64,000 bases of DNA from Phycisphaerae bacterium. GTDB taxonomy: Bacteria > Planctomycetota > Phycisphaerae > Tepidisphaerales > Tepidisphaeraceae. Location: positions 1-64,000 of the forward strand of contig JAICIO010000009.1 in assembly GCA_025924315.1 (NCBI GenBank), in the 5' to 3' direction. Within the stretch, counting starts at the first letter, position 1. The number at the start of each line of letters is the position of its first letter. The translations under genes and the position numbers were made by a program. The notes beneath the pieces were generated by a model that was not told the origin of the DNA, ran no database searches, and saw nothing but the letters and a program-made list of their open reading frames with translations. Below, one piece after another: positions 13,302 to 42,552 of the stretch.

Positions 13302-13657
13302 TCGCATGCGGACCTTCGCAGAACAGGCCCAACTCCGCGAACCATCGGTGGCTTCGTTTCGCCAATCGCCGTGCAGGTAAACAAACGTCAATTCTCGTCA
13401 ACTTTTGACAACCAGCGTCAACCCCCGACGGGAGGGCGAAGCTGCTGCCGACGAGTCTGTTGATCTGCGAAACCGCAAGCGGCTCGGCAGCCTACGACGA
13501 GTGCAGTCGAGTCGGAGCCTCACCCGCGCAATTCAGCTCATCCCGCGCCGTGGGTTCGTTTTGAATTTTCGCGATTCGGTCAACGGCGGTAAACGGTCAA
13601 CCGCGGTCAACCTACGTCAACCAAATGTTCCACTCTACCTCCTGTTCTGCGCGCAGG
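13302..13657. other. Gene-free spacer with GTCAAC-type direct repeats and a degenerate family A repeat
   Basis: No convincing gene. Two clusters of the short word (C/G)GTCAAC flank the middle: 13388-13425 (three close copies) and 13579-13621 (four copies, plus a GGTAAAC variant). Between them, 13431-13527 is a decayed inverted repeat of family A: left arm starting GGGAGGGCGAAGCTGC, right end GAGTCGGAGCCTCACCC. The spacer abuts the 3' end of the integron integrase gene. Confidence 0.6.
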
Positions 13658-14647
13658 TCACCCGGCCGCCAATCGATCAAGCGGGCTCGTCACCGCGATG
13701 GCTGGCTTGTTCATCACGTGCGTGTAAATCATCGTCGTCTTCAGGCTCGCATGACCCAACAACGACTGCACCTGACGCACGTCGTACCCCGCCTCCAGCA
13801 CGTGCGTCGCGAAGCTGTGACGAAAGGTGTGGCACGTCACGCGCTTGCACACCCGCGCCCGTTGCGCGGCGGCTCGAATCGCTCGATCCAGCACGCCAGG
13901 ATTCGAGTACCATCGGTACCCGCGGCCCTCTCCGTCCCTGCGCAGCGTCACGCTCGGAAACACAAACTGCCACCGCCAATCTTGCCGGGCATACGGCGTC
14001 TTATGCTCCAGCGAATCCGGCAGCGGAACATATCCCCCGTCGCGTTGTACATCCCGCTTGTGCTGCGCCCGCACCCGCCGGCACTGCCCGATCAATCGCT
14101 CGCGCAGCGCCTGCGGCATCATCACCACCCGGTCCTTGTCCCCCTTCCCGCCGCGCACGATGATCTGCTCACGTTCAAAGTCCAGGTCGCGGAGCCGAAG
14201 CGTGCAGCATTCCATGGCCCGCAAGCCGCTCCCGTAGAGTAACTCGGTCATCAACCGGTGCATCGACGAAGCCTTCATCGTTTCAATGATGCGGATCGCC
14301 TCACTGGCGCTGAGCACCGTCGGCACGCGCGCCGGCCGGTGCGATCGTTCGAACTCAAACTGCCCCAGGTGATCCTCCCCCAGGTCTTCACCCAGCACTT
14401 GCTTATAAAGAAACACGATCGCGCATGTCGCCTGATTCTGGCTCGAAGCGCTCAGTCGGCGGTCGCGCGCCAGGTGCGTGAGAAATGCGCCCACATCCGC
14501 CGCGTGAAGGTCACCCGGATGCCGCCAGTTCCCATCGACACGAGAGAAGCGCAGAAACTGCCCGATCCACAGTTGGTAGCACTGGATGGTCCCCTTCGAG
14601 AGATGCCGCCGCAAGCCGACATCGCGCACGCGTTGAAGAAGTTTCAT
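13658..14647 (-). CDS. intI: Integron integrase (site-specific tyrosine recombinase)
   Basis: 329 residues, the usual IntI length (IntI1 is 337). N-terminal SAM-like DNA-binding domain (about 1-95; GTIQCYQLWIGQFLRF, THLARDRRLSASSQNQA), then the catalytic domain with R143 (SGLRAME), K171 (GKGDKDR), H273 and R276 (CHTFRHSF), H299 (LLGH) and nucleophile Y308 (MIYTHV). The insert that separates integron integrases from XerC/D is present at about 209-233 (LPDSLEHKTPYARQDWRWQF, then VFPS). It folds and recombines single-stranded attC bottom strands with attI to insert or excise cassettes. The start is supported by AGGAG six bases upstream. It is transcribed away from the cassettes, as usual. No clear LexA box was recognised upstream. 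Confidence 0.93.
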   Translation of the reverse strand: MKLLQRVRDVGLRRHLSKGTIQCYQLWIGQFLRFSRVDGNWRHPGDLHAADVGAFLTHLARDRRLSASSQNQATCAIVFLYKQVLGEDLGEDHLGQFEFERSHRPARVPTVLSASEAIRIIETMKASSMHRLMTELLYGSGLRAMECCTLRLRDLDFEREQIIVRGGKGDKDRVVMMPQALRERLIGQCRRVRAQHKRDVQRDGGYVPLPDSLEHKTPYARQDWRWQFVFPSVTLRRDGEGRGYRWYSNPGVLDRAIRAAAQRARVCKRVTCHTFRHSFATHVLEAGYDVRQVQSLLGHASLKTTMIYTHVMNKPAIAVTSPLDRLAAG

Positions 14648-14719
14648 CCGCCGCTCCTCACCCTAACTGTGACCTAACCTACAGTCAGAATGCGCGCCGG
14701 GCAAGCGCAAATCTTTTTT

Positions 14720-14749
14720 TTGACAACTTGTTCGTCGGCCGAGGATAAT
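14720..14749 (+). promoter_or_regulatory. Cassette promoter Pc of the integron
   Basis: A consensus -35 (TTGACA, 14720-14725) and a near-consensus -10 (GATAAT, 14744-14749) are separated by 18 bp. They lie between the divergent integrase start (14647) and the first cassette and point into the array, where an integron Pc is expected. Transcription should start near 14756. Confidence 0.75.
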
Positions 14750-14759
14750 GGTCCTCAGG

Positions 14760-14816
14760 GCCAACCCGTTCCGGTCGCGTTAACCGCACGGTTGCGCCAG
14801 TGAATAGATGTTATGT
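14760..14816. other. Primary recombination site (attI-like) at the head of the cassette array
   Basis: The crossover box GTTATGT (14810-14816) is preceded by GCCAGTGAATAGAT, which resembles the 3' ends of the attC sites in the array. A GTTAACC box at 14779-14785 and GGGCCAAC ending at 14765 may be further integrase-binding sites. The position immediately upstream of the first cassette argues for attI. Because it looks partly attC-like, it could instead be a short degenerate attC left from a lost cassette, with the true attI just upstream. Confidence 0.6.
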
Positions 14817-14832
14817 GGGCGGAAGACGACGC

Positions 14833-15402
14833 ATGAGCGATGAACAGCACCCATGGCGAGAGCCGCGGAATCTTGAGACGGTGCTCGCGGAAGTGAAGCC
14901 TGTACTTGCATCGCTCGGCATCGTCGAGTCCGGCGCTGGCTGCTCAGAGGCGGAGATCGCCGCGGCTGAGGGTCGCTCACATCGCTTCCCGGAAGACGTC
15001 CGCGCGTTCTACCGTTCGGTGCGACCGACCGAGCTGTTCGCACCGGGAGCGCGCAAGGAGTTCGGGTTCTACACGGTCGGATCGAAAGAGCTGACGTGGA
15101 AGTCGATGGAGGGCGCGGAACCCGCGGAGGATTGGGTGGGCGCGCAGGGCCTCTTCCTTGGCCAGTCCGCGTTTGGCGATCCCTTCTGGTGGGCCGAGGG
15201 GCATCGGACGGCTCCCAACGGCAGCATCTTCCTGCTCGACCACGAGGGGAACTTGAGTGAAGACGTGATGTTCGCCCACTTCGCGCGGTCGTTCGCCGAG
15301 TTTCTCGCGAAGCTCGCGTACTTCAAGAGTCTCGACTCGAAGCCGCAGGACGAGCTGTTCCGCGGCGAGTACCTGGAGTTGAACCCTTCTGCAAAGCGTT
15401 GA
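14833..15402 (+). CDS. Cassette 1: SMI1/KNR4 (SUKH) family protein
   Basis: 189 residues from ATG 14833, with GGAAG at 14821-14825. The layout is that of SUKH-fold proteins: a helix (NLETVLAEVKPVLASLG), an E-rich turn, RFPEDVRAFYRSVRPTELF (the LPxDyrxFyr signature), then beta strands with a W- and G-rich middle (DWVGAQGLFLGQSAFGDPF) and a last helix (SFAEFLAKLAYF). SUKH proteins often serve as immunity proteins of polymorphic toxins, but no toxin partner is seen here. First cassette after Pc, so probably the best expressed. Confidence 0.7.
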   Translation: MSDEQHPWREPRNLETVLAEVKPVLASLGIVESGAGCSEAEIAAAEGRSHRFPEDVRAFYRSVRPTELFAPGARKEFGFYTVGSKELTWKSMEGAEPAEDWVGAQGLFLGQSAFGDPFWWAEGHRTAPNGSIFLLDHEGNLSEDVMFAHFARSFAEFLAKLAYFKSLDSKPQDELFRGEYLELNPSAKR

Positions 15403-15423
15403 GTCGTGGCGGGTCGGCCGCCC

Positions 15424-15524
15424 ACATAACAACACGCTGCAGCGGACCGGGCGGGCGTCGCGGTCCTCGTGAACCGAGAGTTGGTCGGCGCCCGCCCGGC
15501 CGCTGAACGTGGGTCCGGTTATCC
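15424..15524 (+). other. attC1
   Basis: R'' box ACATAAC (15424-15430) pairs with R' GTTATCC (15518-15524). Inner arms AGCGG-A-CCGGGCGGGCG and CGCCCGCCCGGCCGCT pair with one extra A on the left, matching the extrahelical base that sets strand choice. The 101-bp site closes cassette 1. Confidence 0.85.
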
Positions 15525-15542
15525 CGCCTTGAGGTGCACCGC

Positions 15543-15923
15543 ATGGCGAAGTCGCTCGGGAAGAGCAAGCAGTATCCGAAGCTCATCGAGGCGTTCGAAA
15601 GCCTTGAGCGGAACGGCATCGTCTTCAACGCCGGCTCCGGTTACACCGAGGACGACGCCATCGCCGACCTGTCGGAGAAGCTTCACAAGTTCACGCCGGA
15701 AGCGAGGAAAAAGGTCTGGGGGTACTGCCTGTATCACGAGCAGGACGCGGCCCGCGCACTCAAGAGTAAGTTCTTGATGATCTCGTTCGGTTCCTTGGAC
15801 GACAAGCCACCGACAATCTTGAAAGTCGGCGAAGCGGTGTCGGCCGCGCTGCGGGAACAAGGGTTTGAAGTTGAGTGGAATGGCAGCGTCCACCAGCGGA
15901 TTCGAGTGAATCCGTACGGCTAA
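15543..15923 (+). CDS. Cassette 2: DUF6891-like protein
   Basis: 126 residues from ATG 15543; a GTG three codons upstream is possible. NAGSGYTEDDAIADL, VWGYCLYHEQDAARAL and a final strand GFEVEWNGSVHQRIRVN match the pattern of the small uncharacterised DUF6891 family. No catalytic motif or signal peptide; cytoplasmic. Function unknown. Confidence 0.65.
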   Translation: MAKSLGKSKQYPKLIEAFESLERNGIVFNAGSGYTEDDAIADLSEKLHKFTPEARKKVWGYCLYHEQDAARALKSKFLMISFGSLDDKPPTILKVGEAVSAALREQGFEVEWNGSVHQRIRVNPYG

Positions 15924-15932
15924 GGGCCGGCG

Positions 15933-16032
15933 AGATAACCATCCGCTGCAATGGACCGGCTCCGCGTCGGGCGTTCTGCTAAACTCAAACCGGTCGGCGC
16001 GGTGCCGGCCATTGAACGTTGGTCCGTTATTC
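15933..16032 (+). other. attC2
   Basis: R'' AGATAAC (15933-15939), then CTGCAATGGACCGG; the right half GGCCATTGAACG leads to R' GTTATTC (16026-16032). Paired arms contain an unpaired A on the left (TGG-A-CCGG versus CCGGCCA). Length is 100 bp. Confidence 0.85.
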
Positions 16033-16037
16033 CGCAG

Positions 16038-16361
16038 ATGGCCTACCACCTCACGACCCAATTCGGCGCAATGGAGCGTAATCCGACGCCGGAGCGAATG
16101 GCGGCGGTCATCGACGGTATCGATCCGAACGACGAAGAGCACCCGGACGTGTCGCTCACGCATGAGCCGGAGTGGTGCATCGGCGTCTTCGCTTCGGGCT
16201 TGGTGACGTTTGAGAACTTGGAGGAGGGGGAACCGATGCACATGCGCGGTCTGAGCAGGAACGAGATTCTCGACCTTTGGCAGAAACTCGCGCGCGGTGA
16301 GATTGACGCGCTCCGCGCGCTTCCGTGGAAGCCTGGCTACGGCGGCGCGGCTGCGGAATAA
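16038..16361 (+). CDS. Cassette 3: small acidic protein of unknown function
   Basis: 107 residues from ATG 16038, six bases after the crossover box of attC2. An in-frame extension upstream would translate the attC itself and was rejected. Features: DGIDPNDEEHPDVSLTHE, a hydrophobic strand (EWCIGVFASGLVTFENL), then a helix ending LARGEIDALRALPWKPGY. I do not recognise the family; it looks like a compact single-domain cytoplasmic protein. Its stop TAA lies inside the R'' box of attC3. Confidence 0.75.
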   Translation: MAYHLTTQFGAMERNPTPERMAAVIDGIDPNDEEHPDVSLTHEPEWCIGVFASGLVTFENLEEGEPMHMRGLSRNEILDLWQKLARGEIDALRALPWKPGYGGAAAE

Positions 16362-16457
16362 CCCGCCGTTGGAGCGGACCGCGGCGGCGGTATAATTCAT
16401 TTGCGGTCGAGCGTCGCGCGTGCGCCGCCGCGGCCGCTCAACGGCATTCCGTTATGC
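16356..16457 (+). other. attC3
   Basis: R'' GAATAAC (16356-16362) and R' GTTATGC (16451-16457). Arms GAGCGG-A-CCGCGGCGGCG and CGCCGCCGCGGCCGCTC pair with one extrahelical A. The box carries the stop of the upstream gene (16359-16361) and the ATG of the next (16454-16456). A similar interior sequence recurs near 22699. Confidence 0.85.
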
Positions 16458-16879
16458 GACAGGGAGAGACCACACTTCGCCCTCCGTTCCCGTTCTTCGT
16501 CGGGATCATCTCCGTCGTGACGTTCCCCCTCTGGCTCCTGATCGTCGTCGTCGACTTGCTCGCGTGGCGGCCGAGCACATCGCCGCTCAGTCACCTGTGG
16601 CTTGGCGGCGTCTTTTGGCTCGTCAGCATCCTGGGCGCGTCGCCGTCTCTGTTCTTCCGCCTGCGGTTCGTTGAAGATCAACTACAGTTTCGATGGTTCG
16701 GTTACGCGACGCACGTCTTGCCTTACAGCGCGATCCTCCGCTTTGAGTTCCCGGCCTTCTCATTCGGTGGGCTGCGTCTACACGTGGCCGGCGGAAGTCG
16801 GGACGTTTACTGGGTAGATCTGCAAAGGGTGGCAGACCTGTTGCGGCAACATGGTGTGCCGCACGCGGCTGTCGCATAA
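16454..16879 (+). CDS. Cassette 4: two-helix membrane protein with a PH-like C-terminal domain
   Basis: 141 residues. ATG 16454 lies inside the attC3 crossover box, and the stop TAA (16877-16879) lies inside R'' of attC4, so the gene fills its cassette almost exactly. Two membrane helices (FFVGIISVVTFPLWLLIVVV and LWLGGVFWLVSILGASPSLF) are followed by a strand-rich domain (FVEDQLQFRWFGYATHVLPY) ending in DLQRVADLLRQHGV. The layout resembles bacterial PH-type membrane proteins and the gene at 42103-42552. No Shine-Dalgarno is visible before the start. Confidence 0.75.
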   Translation: MRQGETTLRPPFPFFVGIISVVTFPLWLLIVVVDLLAWRPSTSPLSHLWLGGVFWLVSILGASPSLFFRLRFVEDQLQFRWFGYATHVLPYSAILRFEFPAFSFGGLRLHVAGGSRDVYWVDLQRVADLLRQHGVPHAAVA

Positions 16880-16975
16880 CCAGCCAATGCAACGGACCGG
16901 AGCCGCGGGTATGCTTTCTCTCGTTCGAACGGTCTCGGAGCGCGGCTCCGGCCGTTGATCGGCCTTACGTTACGC
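16874..16975 (+). other. attC4
   Basis: R'' GCATAAC (16874-16880), GCAACGGACCGGAGCCGCG on the left, CGCGGCTCCGGCCGTTG on the right, R' GTTACGC (16969-16975). The arms pair with one extra A (ACGG-A-CCGG). Length 102 bp. Confidence 0.85.
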
Positions 16976-17013
16976 CGCTCGTGCTGGTGCGGATCGCTCG
17001 ATAAGATGTTGGC

Positions 17014-17499
17014 GTGAGAAAGCACAAGCTGGGACTGGCGGCGATCGTTTCGATGCTCGTCCTGCTCTCGCTGGTCGGAAGTTATTTCTGTTTCGCGGTC
17101 GTTGGCTTTCAGTGGCCGTGGGGCCCGCCAACACTCAAGGGAGACGGACGGCGGTTCTATACGGCACTTTACCTCGGCAGCGTCCAATCTGGCTTGCAGG
17201 CATCGTCGGGTGGTACGCAGCTTTTGGAGGTCGGCTACTGGCGCTGCGGGCCGCTGTGCTGGTATGGCGAGTTGCCCAGGCTCGACCGCGCGACGTTCTA
17301 TCAGAACCTCTTGCGCTTCCAATCCGAGGAGCGCGTTATTGAGGGCGGGGGCGTGACATTGACGTTCGCCGACGCTCCGGCGTGGGTCTTCATGCCGCTA
17401 TGTCTCATCGCGCCGGTGATGTGGCTGCGGCGTCGGCGGCGCGAGCGCAGCCGCGGGTTTCCTGTTGTCGCTGGGCCGGAGGCGAGCGCTGAAGCGTAA
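17014..17499 (+). CDS. Cassette 5: small membrane protein of the planctomycete Arg-rich type
   Basis: 161 residues from GTG 17014, the only in-frame start near the cassette border. An N-terminal membrane helix (AAIVSMLVLLSLVGSYFCF) is followed by a soluble part with aromatic and Cys residues (YWRCGPLCWYGELP), a second helix (WVFMPLCLIAPVMWL) and an Arg-rich tail (RRRRRERSRG). Planctomycetes carry many proteins of this shape that end in LRRRRR followed by a small zinc ribbon; here the ribbon is missing. Function unknown. Confidence 0.7.
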   Translation: MRKHKLGLAAIVSMLVLLSLVGSYFCFAVVGFQWPWGPPTLKGDGRRFYTALYLGSVQSGLQASSGGTQLLEVGYWRCGPLCWYGELPRLDRATFYQNLLRFQSEERVIEGGGVTLTFADAPAWVFMPLCLIAPVMWLRRRRRERSRGFPVVAGPEASAEA

Positions 17500-17523
17500 G
17501 CTGCGAGAGAAATCGCGGTTACA

Positions 17524-17558
17524 ATCCCGCTCGTGCTGGGCCGTTCGGCGAGCGGGAT
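17524..17558 (+). terminator. Strong hairpin after cassette 5 gene
   Basis: ATCCCGCTCG (17524-17533) pairs perfectly with CGAGCGGGAT (17549-17558) around 15 bases. It lies between the stop of cassette 5 and attC5 and overlaps the R'' edge. There is no T-tract, so it may be an mRNA 3' stabiliser or part of the extended attC fold instead. Confidence 0.45.
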
Positions 17559-17654
17559 AACCCAACACTGCACTGGACCCGCCCGGCGGAACGGTCCTGG
17601 TGTTTCGGACGCTGGTTGGCGCCGGGCCGGCCAGTGAATGTCTTTCCGTTATTT
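17555..17654 (+). other. attC5
   Basis: R'' GGATAAC (17555-17561), then CACTGCACTGGACCC; the right half GCCGGCCAGTGAATG leads to R' GTTATTT (17648-17654). Complementarity of the arms is weaker than in the other sites, but the spacing (100 bp) and boxes are kept. Confidence 0.75.
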
Positions 17655-17671
17655 CCGCAGAGGGAGCCGCA

Positions 17672-18079
17672 ATGGGTGCTTGGGGCGTATTGGCCTTCGA
17701 CAACGACGACGCGAACGACTGGGCGTATGACCTGGAGGGTGCCGACGACCTGGCGCTCGTCGAATCCGCGTTCGACACGATTGAGCAGACCGACGACTAC
17801 CTCGAGGCTCCGGATGCCTCAAACGCGCTGGCCGCATGCGAAGTGTTGGCGCGTCTCAACGGGAAATCGGGGTACAAGAACTCGTACACGGAGAAGGTCG
17901 ACGAGTGGGTCGCCGCTCATCCGCAGACGCCATCCCCTGCACTATTGAAACGCGCCGACGCTGCCATCGATCGCATCCTGGGGGAGAACTCCGAACTGAA
18001 AGAGCTATGGGCCGACAGCGACGAGAATGGTGCCTGGCTTGCGTCGGTCGAGGATCTCCGCCAGCGGCTGCGGAAATAA
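17672..18079 (+). CDS. Cassette 6: DUF4259 domain protein
   Basis: 135 residues from ATG 17672, with AGAGGGAG at 17660-17667. The opening MGAWGVLAFDNDDANDWAYD is the DUF4259 signature, followed by acidic helices (SNALAACEVLARLNG, ELKELWADSDENGAWLASV) as in the family. These are small acidic cytoplasmic proteins of unknown function, often next to immunity-like genes. The stop TAA (18077-18079) lies inside R'' of attC6. Confidence 0.85.
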   Translation: MGAWGVLAFDNDDANDWAYDLEGADDLALVESAFDTIEQTDDYLEAPDASNALAACEVLARLNGKSGYKNSYTEKVDEWVAAHPQTPSPALLKRADAAIDRILGENSELKELWADSDENGAWLASVEDLRQRLRK

Positions 18080-18174
18080 CCCCGCACTGCAACGGACCGG
18101 CCGGGCGGAACGGTCCTTGTGAATCGTGAAATGGTCGGGCGCCCGGCCGGCCGTTCAATGCTGATCCGTTAGTC
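18074..18174 (+). other. attC6
   Basis: R'' AAATAAC (18074-18080), GCAACGGACCGGCCGGGCG on the left, CGCCCGGCCGGCCGTT on the right, R' GTTAGTC (18168-18174). The arms pair with a single extra A. Length 101 bp. Confidence 0.85.
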
Positions 18175-18177
18175 CGC

Positions 18178-18639
18178 ATGGCCGAGAGCCGCATGGATAC
18201 TCCGGGCGAAATCAACCTGACCGGGACGAGCAATGACGTTGCACGCTGGATTTGGAAGACGCTTGTCCCCAAGTCCGGTCAGGCCCCGTTCGTGCAGGCG
18301 GAGATACTTCGCGCGATTGAGAAGCTCCGATGGGAGGCGCAGAACAACGGGAACATCAACTGGGACGACCGTTTCGAAATGCTCGCCGACTACATCGAGG
18401 AAAGGCTTGTATCCCAACCGTGCTTCGACGCCGCAGCCAAAGCATCTATTCGCGAGGACCTCAATCGGTTGCGAGGATTCACGCCCGTGAATGACGCCGA
18501 GGATGCCGCTGATTTGGCTGCGCACGGGCCGTATGTCGAGGACGATCTTTACGACCGTCTGACTGAGCATTTGATCGTGTACTGTCGGAGTCATCCGCAG
18601 CTGATTCCGCACGTCGCCGATCCGAAGCAGTATCGCTAG
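18178..18639 (+). CDS. Cassette 7: hypothetical alpha-helical protein
   Basis: 153 residues from ATG 18178, four bases after the attC6 box; ATG 18193 is an alternative. The protein is mostly helical (ARWIWKTLVPKSGQ, VQAEILRAIEKLRWEAQ, FEMLADYIEERLVSQP, ASIREDLNRLRGF) with a C-terminal acidic DLYDRLTEHLIVYCRSHP. No signal peptide or known motif recognised. Being the last cassette it is probably the oldest acquisition and the least transcribed from Pc. Confidence 0.7.
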   Translation: MAESRMDTPGEINLTGTSNDVARWIWKTLVPKSGQAPFVQAEILRAIEKLRWEAQNNGNINWDDRFEMLADYIEERLVSQPCFDAAAKASIREDLNRLRGFTPVNDAEDAADLAAHGPYVEDDLYDRLTEHLIVYCRSHPQLIPHVADPKQYR

Positions 18640-18659
18640 CAGGCGGCGGCGCGAATGCG

Positions 18660-18805
18660 GACTAACCAAGCACTGCAACGGACCGGGCCGGCGGTATAGT
18701 CTCTTTAAATCGGAAGCCGGTATGGCGCCGGACCGGGGCCACGACGGTCCTTGTAACTCGAACGCTGGTCGTCGGCCCTGGGCAGTGAATGTTGATCGGT
18801 TATTC
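18660..18805 (+). other. attC7 (longest, last site)
   Basis: R'' GACTAAC (18660-18666), GCAACGGACCGGGCCG on the left, CGGCCCTGGGCAGTGAATG on the right, R' GTTATTC (18799-18805). At 146 bp it is longer than the others because the variable terminal part contains an extra imperfect hairpin (18700-18737). No further attC follows, so this marks the array end. Confidence 0.8.
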
Positions 18806-41453: not shown

Positions 41454-41804
41454 GGGAACTCCTCGTGAGTTGGGGCTTGAGACCCGAGTTTTACTTTCCG
41501 AGCCAGATGAAAGAGGCCAACATTCCGGCCGAGAAGGAGGAGGGTCTGGTGAAGGAGAGATGGCGCGACGCAAACGGAATCGCAGCAACCGGCTTCGCTA
41601 GGCGAACCTACCGGAGGTCAGTGTAGCAGGTGCGGGCGGGAATAGCTACGCGCGCGAGCGGGGAAGACGGTATTCAGGCAAAAACCGCGTTTCGGGACTT
41701 TTAAAGAGGGTCAAAGCGACTTTTGGGATGTCGCGGATTGAGCGGCAAGGCCACGGACTGGGGAGGCCTTGTTGTTTGGCGGGCGGGTCCGAAGAATAAT
41801 TGTT
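41454..41804. other. Gene-free stretch upstream of the RRM gene
   Basis: 350 bp with no supported gene. It should hold the RRM gene's promoter and leader (minus strand) and the start region of the gene at 41805. Near its right end, GGCGGGCGGGTCCG (41779-41792) and the box GTTATGC (41802-41808) resemble the 3' half of the integron attC sites. Confidence 0.5.
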
Positions 41805-42095
41805 ATGCGGCTGAAGACACTGGACAACCCGCAGCGCCGCCGCGCACTTGAGCAGCTCGTACGCAACGCATTTCCGGGCTGTTGTGCGATGTTCCTTGAG
41901 GCTCCGGCAGGCGGGGTCGCGTTTCGTATCCGCGCAGAAAATGGTCGGTACCGTCCCGGCGTGATTAAGGTCCTCGCCCACCAGGGCCACGTGCGGTTTA
42001 ACAGTGCTTGGCTCGCCAGACAGATAAAGATTCACGGCGGTTCGGCGGCTGCCTCACCCTATCCGATGTCGAGGCGCCGACTTGGCCTTATGTGA
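41805..42095 (+). CDS. Hypothetical basic protein starting in a GTTATGC box
   Basis: 96 residues from ATG 41805: MRLKTLDNPQRRRALEQLVR, then AFRIRAENGRYRPGVIKVLA. No signal peptide or known domain. The start codon is inside GTTATGC, as for cassette 4 of the integron. The C-terminal end (PYPMSRRRLGLM) is weak, so the gene may be shortened. Confidence 0.45.
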   Translation: MRLKTLDNPQRRRALEQLVRNAFPGCCAMFLEAPAGGVAFRIRAENGRYRPGVIKVLAHQGHVRFNSAWLARQIKIHGGSAAASPYPMSRRRLGLM

Positions 42096-42102
42096 CACAC
42101 CT

Positions 42103-42552
42103 TTGGACACAGAAGCCATTAAACTCGTTCGAGGAAGTGCGTCTCGCACATTGCGGACGGTCGGCTGGCAATTCGCCGTGGTGATTTGCCTGCCCATAGC
42201 GGGACTCTGGATCTTCGCGAAGGATTCCGTTGCGACAAAGATCGCGGCCAGTGTGGCGATGCTAGCTTTAGCTGGCATCGGTGTTGTGTGCATATGCGTC
42301 GCGTCGGCATTCGCGGTCGCGGAAATTCGGGATGACCGCCTGAGCTTTTATTTCTGTGGCATTCGGACGCGTTCAATCGCGCTGGATGAGTCGACCTTCT
42401 TCGAGCTGCGCAAGATCGGCCGGCTTGAGATCCTTCGCATTTGCTCAAATGGCTCAAGGTATGTTCCGAACGGCGCACTCGACAAATCGGCCGTTGTCGA
42501 CCTGCTTCGCGCAAATGGTGTAGCGGAACAAAAAGCCGAATCACCGGATTAG
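42103..42552 (+). CDS. Two-helix membrane protein with PH-like domain, related to cassette 4
   Basis: About 150 residues; the start is unclear (TTG 42103 or TTG 42082; no ATG in frame). Two membrane helices (FAVVICLPIAGLWIFA and AASVAMLALAGIGVVCICVA) are followed by EIRDDRLSFYFCGIRTRSIA, and the end reads SAVVDLLRANGVAEQ. Cassette 4 (16454) has the same order, with EDQLQFRWFGYATHVLPY and RVADLLRQHGV. Family of unknown function, perhaps a bacterial PH-domain type. Convergent with the permease operon, three bases apart. Confidence 0.6.
   Translation: MDTEAIKLVRGSASRTLRTVGWQFAVVICLPIAGLWIFAKDSVATKIAASVAMLALAGIGVVCICVASAFAVAEIRDDRLSFYFCGIRTRSIALDESTFFELRKIGRLEILRICSNGSRYVPNGALDKSAVVDLLRANGVAEQKAESPD

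Follow-up and report, generated by a model that had tools for sequence, protein, structure and literature searches.

A planctomycete chromosomal integron whose integrase may also serve promoter-attI arrays without intI elsewhere in the genome

An integron is usually pictured with a single entry point, so that only its newest cassettes are well expressed. Whether this picture suffices is the question raised by a 64,000-nucleotide stretch of DNA from a Phycisphaerae bacterium (positions 1 to 64,000 of contig JAICIO010000009.1, hereafter the window), which lies on contig C9 of the source genome, G000, and carries a chromosomal integron composed of an integrase gene (intI), an outward cassette promoter (Pc), a primary site (attI) and seven gene cassettes with their attC sites. 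We consider it probable, at roughly 0.64, that a distributed chromosomal integron has its intI-bearing platform here, and that the integrase (IntI) also serves promoter-attI arrays without intI elsewhere in the genome.

It is evident that the recombinase in the window is an integron integrase. It scores 353 bits against the TIGR02249 profile (cut-off 265), and XerC and XerD identities were rejected, as both profiles fail (154 bits against a cut-off of 335 and 148 against 330, respectively). Its closest solved structure is 2a3v, a Vibrio integron integrase (E 5e-66, 323 residues aligned). The catalytic motifs are found at residues 141-143 (GLR), 167-171 (GKGDK), 273-277 (HTFRH), 297-299 (LGH) and Y308, and the integron-specific stretch covers residues 206-232. 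In a maximum-likelihood tree the integron integrases are split from planctomycete Xer proteins with support 100/100, and the window IntI clusters with those of G020, G013, Phycisphaerales bacterium UBA2421 and contig L032 (95/93). The intI genes that can be aligned to the window intI share 71-74% DNA identity with it. An earlier sequence-only reading of this DNA had named the recombinase as an integron integrase and the host as a probable planctomycete, and both calls are borne out, the host family including Phycisphaerales bacterium UBA2421 (same-family genome G005). It had also described a complete chromosomal integron with seven same-direction one-gene cassettes; indeed every part was found (intI, Pc, attI, seven cassettes and folded attCs), and the seven open reading frames (ORFs) are all on the forward strand, each with an attC. 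The predicted Pc is a strong one, with 11 of 12 consensus matches, where 0.0 are expected in shuffles. With seven attCs, the window array is smaller than the size rule of at least 11 attCs used for sedentary chromosomal integrons in PMC11023631.

The attC sites were then considered as folded structures. Seven R''...R' pairs span 15424-18805, and when the seven attCs are aligned as bottom strands, 93% of the stem cells are paired and 10 base pairs are changed on both sides. Double-changed cells number 22 versus 7.5 ± 2.3 in shuffles, the covariation score is three times the shuffled mean, and sliding the partner by one base abolishes the signal in a control. These results agree with the earlier expectation of folded sites at the boxes. 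In the L'' arm a T is unpaired in all seven attCs and another base close by, G in six of them, also bulges out, and classical attCs likewise have unpaired bottom-strand bases in this arm. An Rfam search of the window gave no match. A covariance model built from the seven window attCs gives 77-109 bits on these sites, which are its training sequences, and the next independent match within the window has 12.5 bits. Other genera of the family yield matches of as much as 100 bits to the model, and most other integrase-bearing loci give about 18-34 bits, so that the suggestion of an attC type particular to this lineage is sustained.

The two ends of most cassettes are also related to each other. 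Five of the seven window cassettes open with 12-13 bases that are the exact complement of the stretch ending in the cassette's own R'' box, and the same complementarity covers only 4-7 bases with most other cassettes. Summed over the array, own-end complementarity amounts to 72 bp, a value reached by 2 of 5040 re-pairings, the identity pairing included. Because the two ends complement each other, the outer stem of the attC is complete only in the excised circle. Own-end complementarity of at least 11 is found in 50% of the family attCs versus 2% with control probes, whereas in arrays of other phyla, where 7 of 35 reach 11, the measure is mostly 7-10, in contrast to the stem of 12-13 bp seen here.

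We then asked whether the window holds the whole system, as had been supposed. It does not: the genome has at least four array loci, of which this is one, and 15 attCs on contigs C9, C92, C78 and C75, eight of them outside the window (four on C92 and two each on C78 and C75). The arrays on C92, C78 and C75 have at least two attCs and no adjacent integrase, which is the definition of a cluster of attC sites lacking an integron integrase (CALIN). Among the 26 genomes of the family, 13 are matched by the attC model, and 11, the source genome included, carry 9-37 attCs. A full-length intI above the TIGR02249 cut-off is present in only 4 of the 26 (G000, G005, G013 and G020). In principle the extra arrays could come from other organisms through faulty assembly or binning, since G000 is a metagenome-assembled genome (MAG) of 262 contigs with 4.6% contamination, and a contig with the same IntI and attC type in a Methylococcaceae MAG looks misbinned. 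This explanation is highly improbable, as the scatter is seen in 11 genomes and, next to the intI remnant, the DNA of C92 matches the window contig at 86% identity. Moreover, the G013 genome, assembled as one contig (7.19 Mb), has 19 attCs at 12 loci, only one of them beside intI; the scatter is therefore not an assembly effect. The Methylococcaceae-labelled contig (L032, CADDYU010000222.1, 6.6 kb) encodes an IntI 65% identical to that of the window and has four planctomycete-type attCs; it is either misbinned or a recent transfer.

What opens the scattered arrays is of interest. Own-end complementarity was used to place cassette 5' ends where no attC precedes, which gave 39 first boundaries, six of them preceded by attC-like sequence. 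From the remaining boundaries a set of 27 in eight genomes, picked partly by eye and including the window attI, was used to derive a motif. In the shared attI-like motif, a TT some 30 bases upstream and a GG at -17/-16 precede an A/T-rich L box, which is followed by GTTAT. When the tested genome is left out of the motif, 19 of the 27 boundaries score above 14, a score of 14 or more being expected by chance about 0.5 times per 64 kb under a dinucleotide model of the window. The window attI scores 20.2, or 14.6 with its own genome left out. In the loci examined, nearly all high motif scores are at first-cassette positions. A sigma-70-like promoter score of at least 9 within 140 bp upstream is found for 66% of 35 sites versus 7% of control positions, and the -10 box of these predicted promoters is mostly 47-72 bp from the crossover. 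Because each array opens with Pc and attI, a captured cassette would land beside a promoter.

These boundaries bear on the possibility that the scattered cassettes are off-target IntI insertions at chance genomic sites (attG). IntI1 is known to insert cassettes in this way (Loot et al. 2024, cited in PMC11023631 and PMC12444791), a few left flanks (L147 and L178) show little besides GTT, and one copy in G005 of a cassette shared among genera, described below, is joined at an internal GTT. However, a left flank free of attI features, as expected of attG, was seen at only a few of the tested boundaries, and most placed boundaries carry the attI-type motif, have a promoter upstream and lie within repeated units, features not expected of chance sites. 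We thus regard attG insertion as very unlikely to account for the scatter.

The promoter and the attI-like motif recur together as units. G008 has 12 copies of a 114-bp promoter-attI unit, 79-97% identical and all situated in attC-bearing loci; neither a full-length intI in its assembly nor a trace of intI near these 12 units was found. One family of four copies, also in loci with attCs, is present in G005. G021 has six related sites and at least two unit families. The conserved unit is only about 80-130 bp in several genomes, and the DNA farther upstream is mostly unrelated between copies. Since such capture sites have their own promoters and no integrase, one enzyme may serve the whole chromosome. 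The first half of an attC precedes the unit in three G008 cases, directly 5' of it (L189, 5824-5963; L190, 4704-4874 and 5675-5820), an arrangement that may amount to an attC carrying its own promoter for whichever cassette comes next. Spread of the units via chimeric attCs at these loci was considered and is only partly supported, the L''/L' pairing being good in one of the three.

Movement is indicated by a roughly 1-kb cassette, encoding a protein of 286-287 aa without a Pfam family, that is shared at about 90% nucleotide identity across three genera (G013, G021 and G005). Between the G013 and G021 copies, 89% identity begins at the G of GTT and ends with the attC R' box, and the 60 bases to their left are 40% identical. 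As a yardstick, the alignable intI genes reach only the 71-74% identity to the window intI given above. The G005 copy (91%) lacks the first 36 bases and is joined at an internal GTT, and a G008 copy (81%) starts at the crossover. The G021 copy, with its exact ends intact, occupies an intI-less promoter-attI unit, and therefore such sites have received cassettes. In G008 (L236, contig C81) the shared cassette is found without attC, beside a gene start that by eye resembles a repetitive extragenic palindrome (REP)-associated (Y1-type) transposase.

Loss of intI is also evident. On C92 IntI residues 1-61 are fused to residues 306-316, with attI and four cassettes kept, and sites in G013 and G011 have shorter IntI remnants next to them. 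Three intI pieces in G021 all end at contig ends. Some of the scattered arrays are clearly decayed duplicate integrons. Short GTCAAC-rich repeats at window positions 13390-13625, downstream of intI, are also retained beside the C92 remnant. It could thus be argued that the window holds an ordinary complete integron accompanied by ordinary CALINs, the other arrays being relics without intI that nothing serves in trans. The remnants beside attI on C92, in G013 and in G011 are as expected of such relics, and so are the many attCs of G008 and G011, which have no full-length intI, and sites with genes and no attC left (window position 41802; L206 and L207); CALINs, which are frequent, have been suggested to derive from integron degradation (PMC9024848). 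Yet a trace of intI is absent near most sites, including the 12 units of G008, the conserved piece in several genomes measures only about 80-130 bp, and the cassette of about 90% identity between genera has intact exact ends at the intI-less G021 unit. Relics alone are a possible explanation, albeit a rather unlikely one.

We therefore favor a distributed integron, in which IntI would take up circular cassettes at its own attI and very probably also serves, in trans, promoter-attI arrays without their own integrase. Some units would have been left by duplicated integrons after loss of intI, and others may have spread as small promoter-attI pieces, by whatever route. Several observations weigh against this reading. 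No recombination was seen, and we infer the use in trans. The genomes are mostly draft MAGs in which intI may have been lost in assembly, as with the G021 pieces that stop at contig ends. The C92 locus of G000 and L151 of G013 are plainly decayed integrons and fit passive relics equally well. The 27 motif sites are a choice, partly by eye, among 39 placed boundaries; several sites have low motif scores (L151, L171, L200 and L196), and the full motif is absent at several G013 loci (L146, L147 and L154) and at L178 of G021. An empty-site comparison of G008 flanks with the same-genus genome G024 found no alignable DNA. The wider proposition, that in this Phycisphaerales lineage integrase-less promoter-attI units around the chromosome are all loaded by a single integrase (or one in some strains), seems to us evenly balanced.

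The features of the window are listed in Table 1. The integron sits on an 84-kb contig between genes that by eye are sugar-phosphate-isomerase-like and sulfatase-like. Two details of the earlier description were amended: the start of the cassette 4 gene, whose ATG overlaps the preceding attC (GTTATG, 16451-16456), and the size of attC7, which had been given as about 100 nt. The two genes behind the second attI-like site, for which neither an attC match by the model nor a Pfam family was found, are perhaps fixed cassettes.

Table 1. Positions of integron features and of a second attI-like site in the window
Feature	Position	Strand	Description
intI	13658..14647	-	integron integrase, 329 aa, apparently intact; TIGR02249, 2a3v match and tree
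Pc	14720..14749	+	TTGACA-18-GATAAT, predicted from consensus
attI	14776..14816	+	GTTA at 14779, L box GAATAGAT, crossover G at 14810 (GTTATG); from sequence only
cassette 1 gene	14833..15402	+	SUKH-1 (SMI1/KNR4) domain, 189 aa; PF09346 25.9 bits, cut-off 25.4
attC1	15424..15524	+	R''/R' pair, fold, covariance model
cassette 2 gene	15543..15923	+	DUF6891; PF21831 105.7 bits
attC2	15933..16032	+	R''/R' pair, fold, covariance model
cassette 3 gene	16038..16361	+	no family; no match in Pfam, NCBIfam, PADLOC
attC3	16356..16457	+	R''/R' pair, fold, covariance model
cassette 4 gene	16454..16879	+	hydrophobic protein, no family (Pfam, NCBIfam, PADLOC)
attC4	16874..16975	+	R''/R' pair, fold, covariance model
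cassette 5 gene	17014..17499	+	hydrophobic protein, GTG start, no family (Pfam, NCBIfam, PADLOC)
attC5	17555..17654	+	R''/R' pair, fold, covariance model
cassette 6 gene	17672..18079	+	DUF4259; PF14078 109.1 bits
attC6	18074..18174	+	R''/R' pair, fold, covariance model
cassette 7 gene	18178..18639	+	no family (Pfam, NCBIfam, PADLOC)
attC7	18660..18805	+	146 nt, longest terminal structure; 76.7 bits in attC model
second attI-like site	41768..41808	+	crossover G at 41802, then GTTATGCGGCTG; score 19.8, next to 20.2 of the true attI
two small genes behind the 41802 site	41805-42095, 42082-42552	+	putatively cassette-like

Among 90 cassette ORFs of the family, Pfam identified SUKH families, acetyltransferases, an Imm48 and a BrnT toxin, and most others had no match. 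The small cassette proteins resemble immunity or toxin-antitoxin-type cargo, and this is a resemblance only. Because PADLOC detected no known defence family among the window cassettes or the 90 family cassette ORFs, we do not call the array a defence array.

Other loci show further repeated DNA. In G013, L153 and L157 (4.16 and 7.16 Mb) have three attC matches whose upstream DNA is 94% identical and in which GCATGGGTTCTCTG replaces the normal R'' box, and a different repeated element may be involved. About 660 bp directly 5' of the first cassette is 86% identical between L146 and L154 (162 kb and 4.68 Mb of the same genome). Three G025 loci were compared at the DNA level with those of G013, and no array locus was found in common. 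Contig C1 of G152 (same class, family f18) has 19 attC matches of 109 nt each, regularly spaced in two regions about 1 Mb apart; multi-locus arrays may thus occur in another family too.

Integron arrays had been taken as little studied in planctomycetes, which was overstated: such integrons have been on record since 2008 (PMC2426708), and an attC covariance model for Planctomycetes is already available (PMC8352920). Like chromosomal integrons elsewhere, the one described here has an IntI with the integron-specific stretch, an intI divergent from the cassettes, Pc, attI, one-gene cassettes and foldable attCs; unlike them, it is accompanied by several promoter-attI arrays per genome, whereas according to the authors of IntegronFinder 2.0 a single attI near the integrase is typical (PMC9024848). 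The loci on C92, C78 and C75 and most of those in relatives share with CALINs the presence of attCs without an intact adjacent intI, but many arrays here are headed by repeated units of promoter and attI motif, a feature outside the CALIN definition; by the same authors' account, attI sites other than those of class 1 are little characterized and are not part of the search (PMC9024848). As in attG insertions, cassettes are found away from the integron platform, but the left flanks share attI-type sequence and a promoter rather than the bare GTT-type core of attG insertions (Loot et al. 2024). The delta-attI cassettes of class 1 and 2 integrons (PMC12901181) also have extra attI sequence beside cassettes, and the delta-attI2 core AATAAAATGTTRRRY resembles GAATAGATGTTATG here; those cassettes, however, are inside mobile integrons, without chromosome-wide repeated promoter-attI units. 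A literature search, with most subscription journals outside its reach, found no description of repeated integrase-less promoter-attI units.

If the proposed reading is true, many promoter-bearing entry points would allow one integrase to keep many cassettes expressed simultaneously. It would also account for the many genomes that have attC clusters lacking a nearby integrase, and these planctomycetes would offer a natural system for testing integrase action in trans and the origin of attI.

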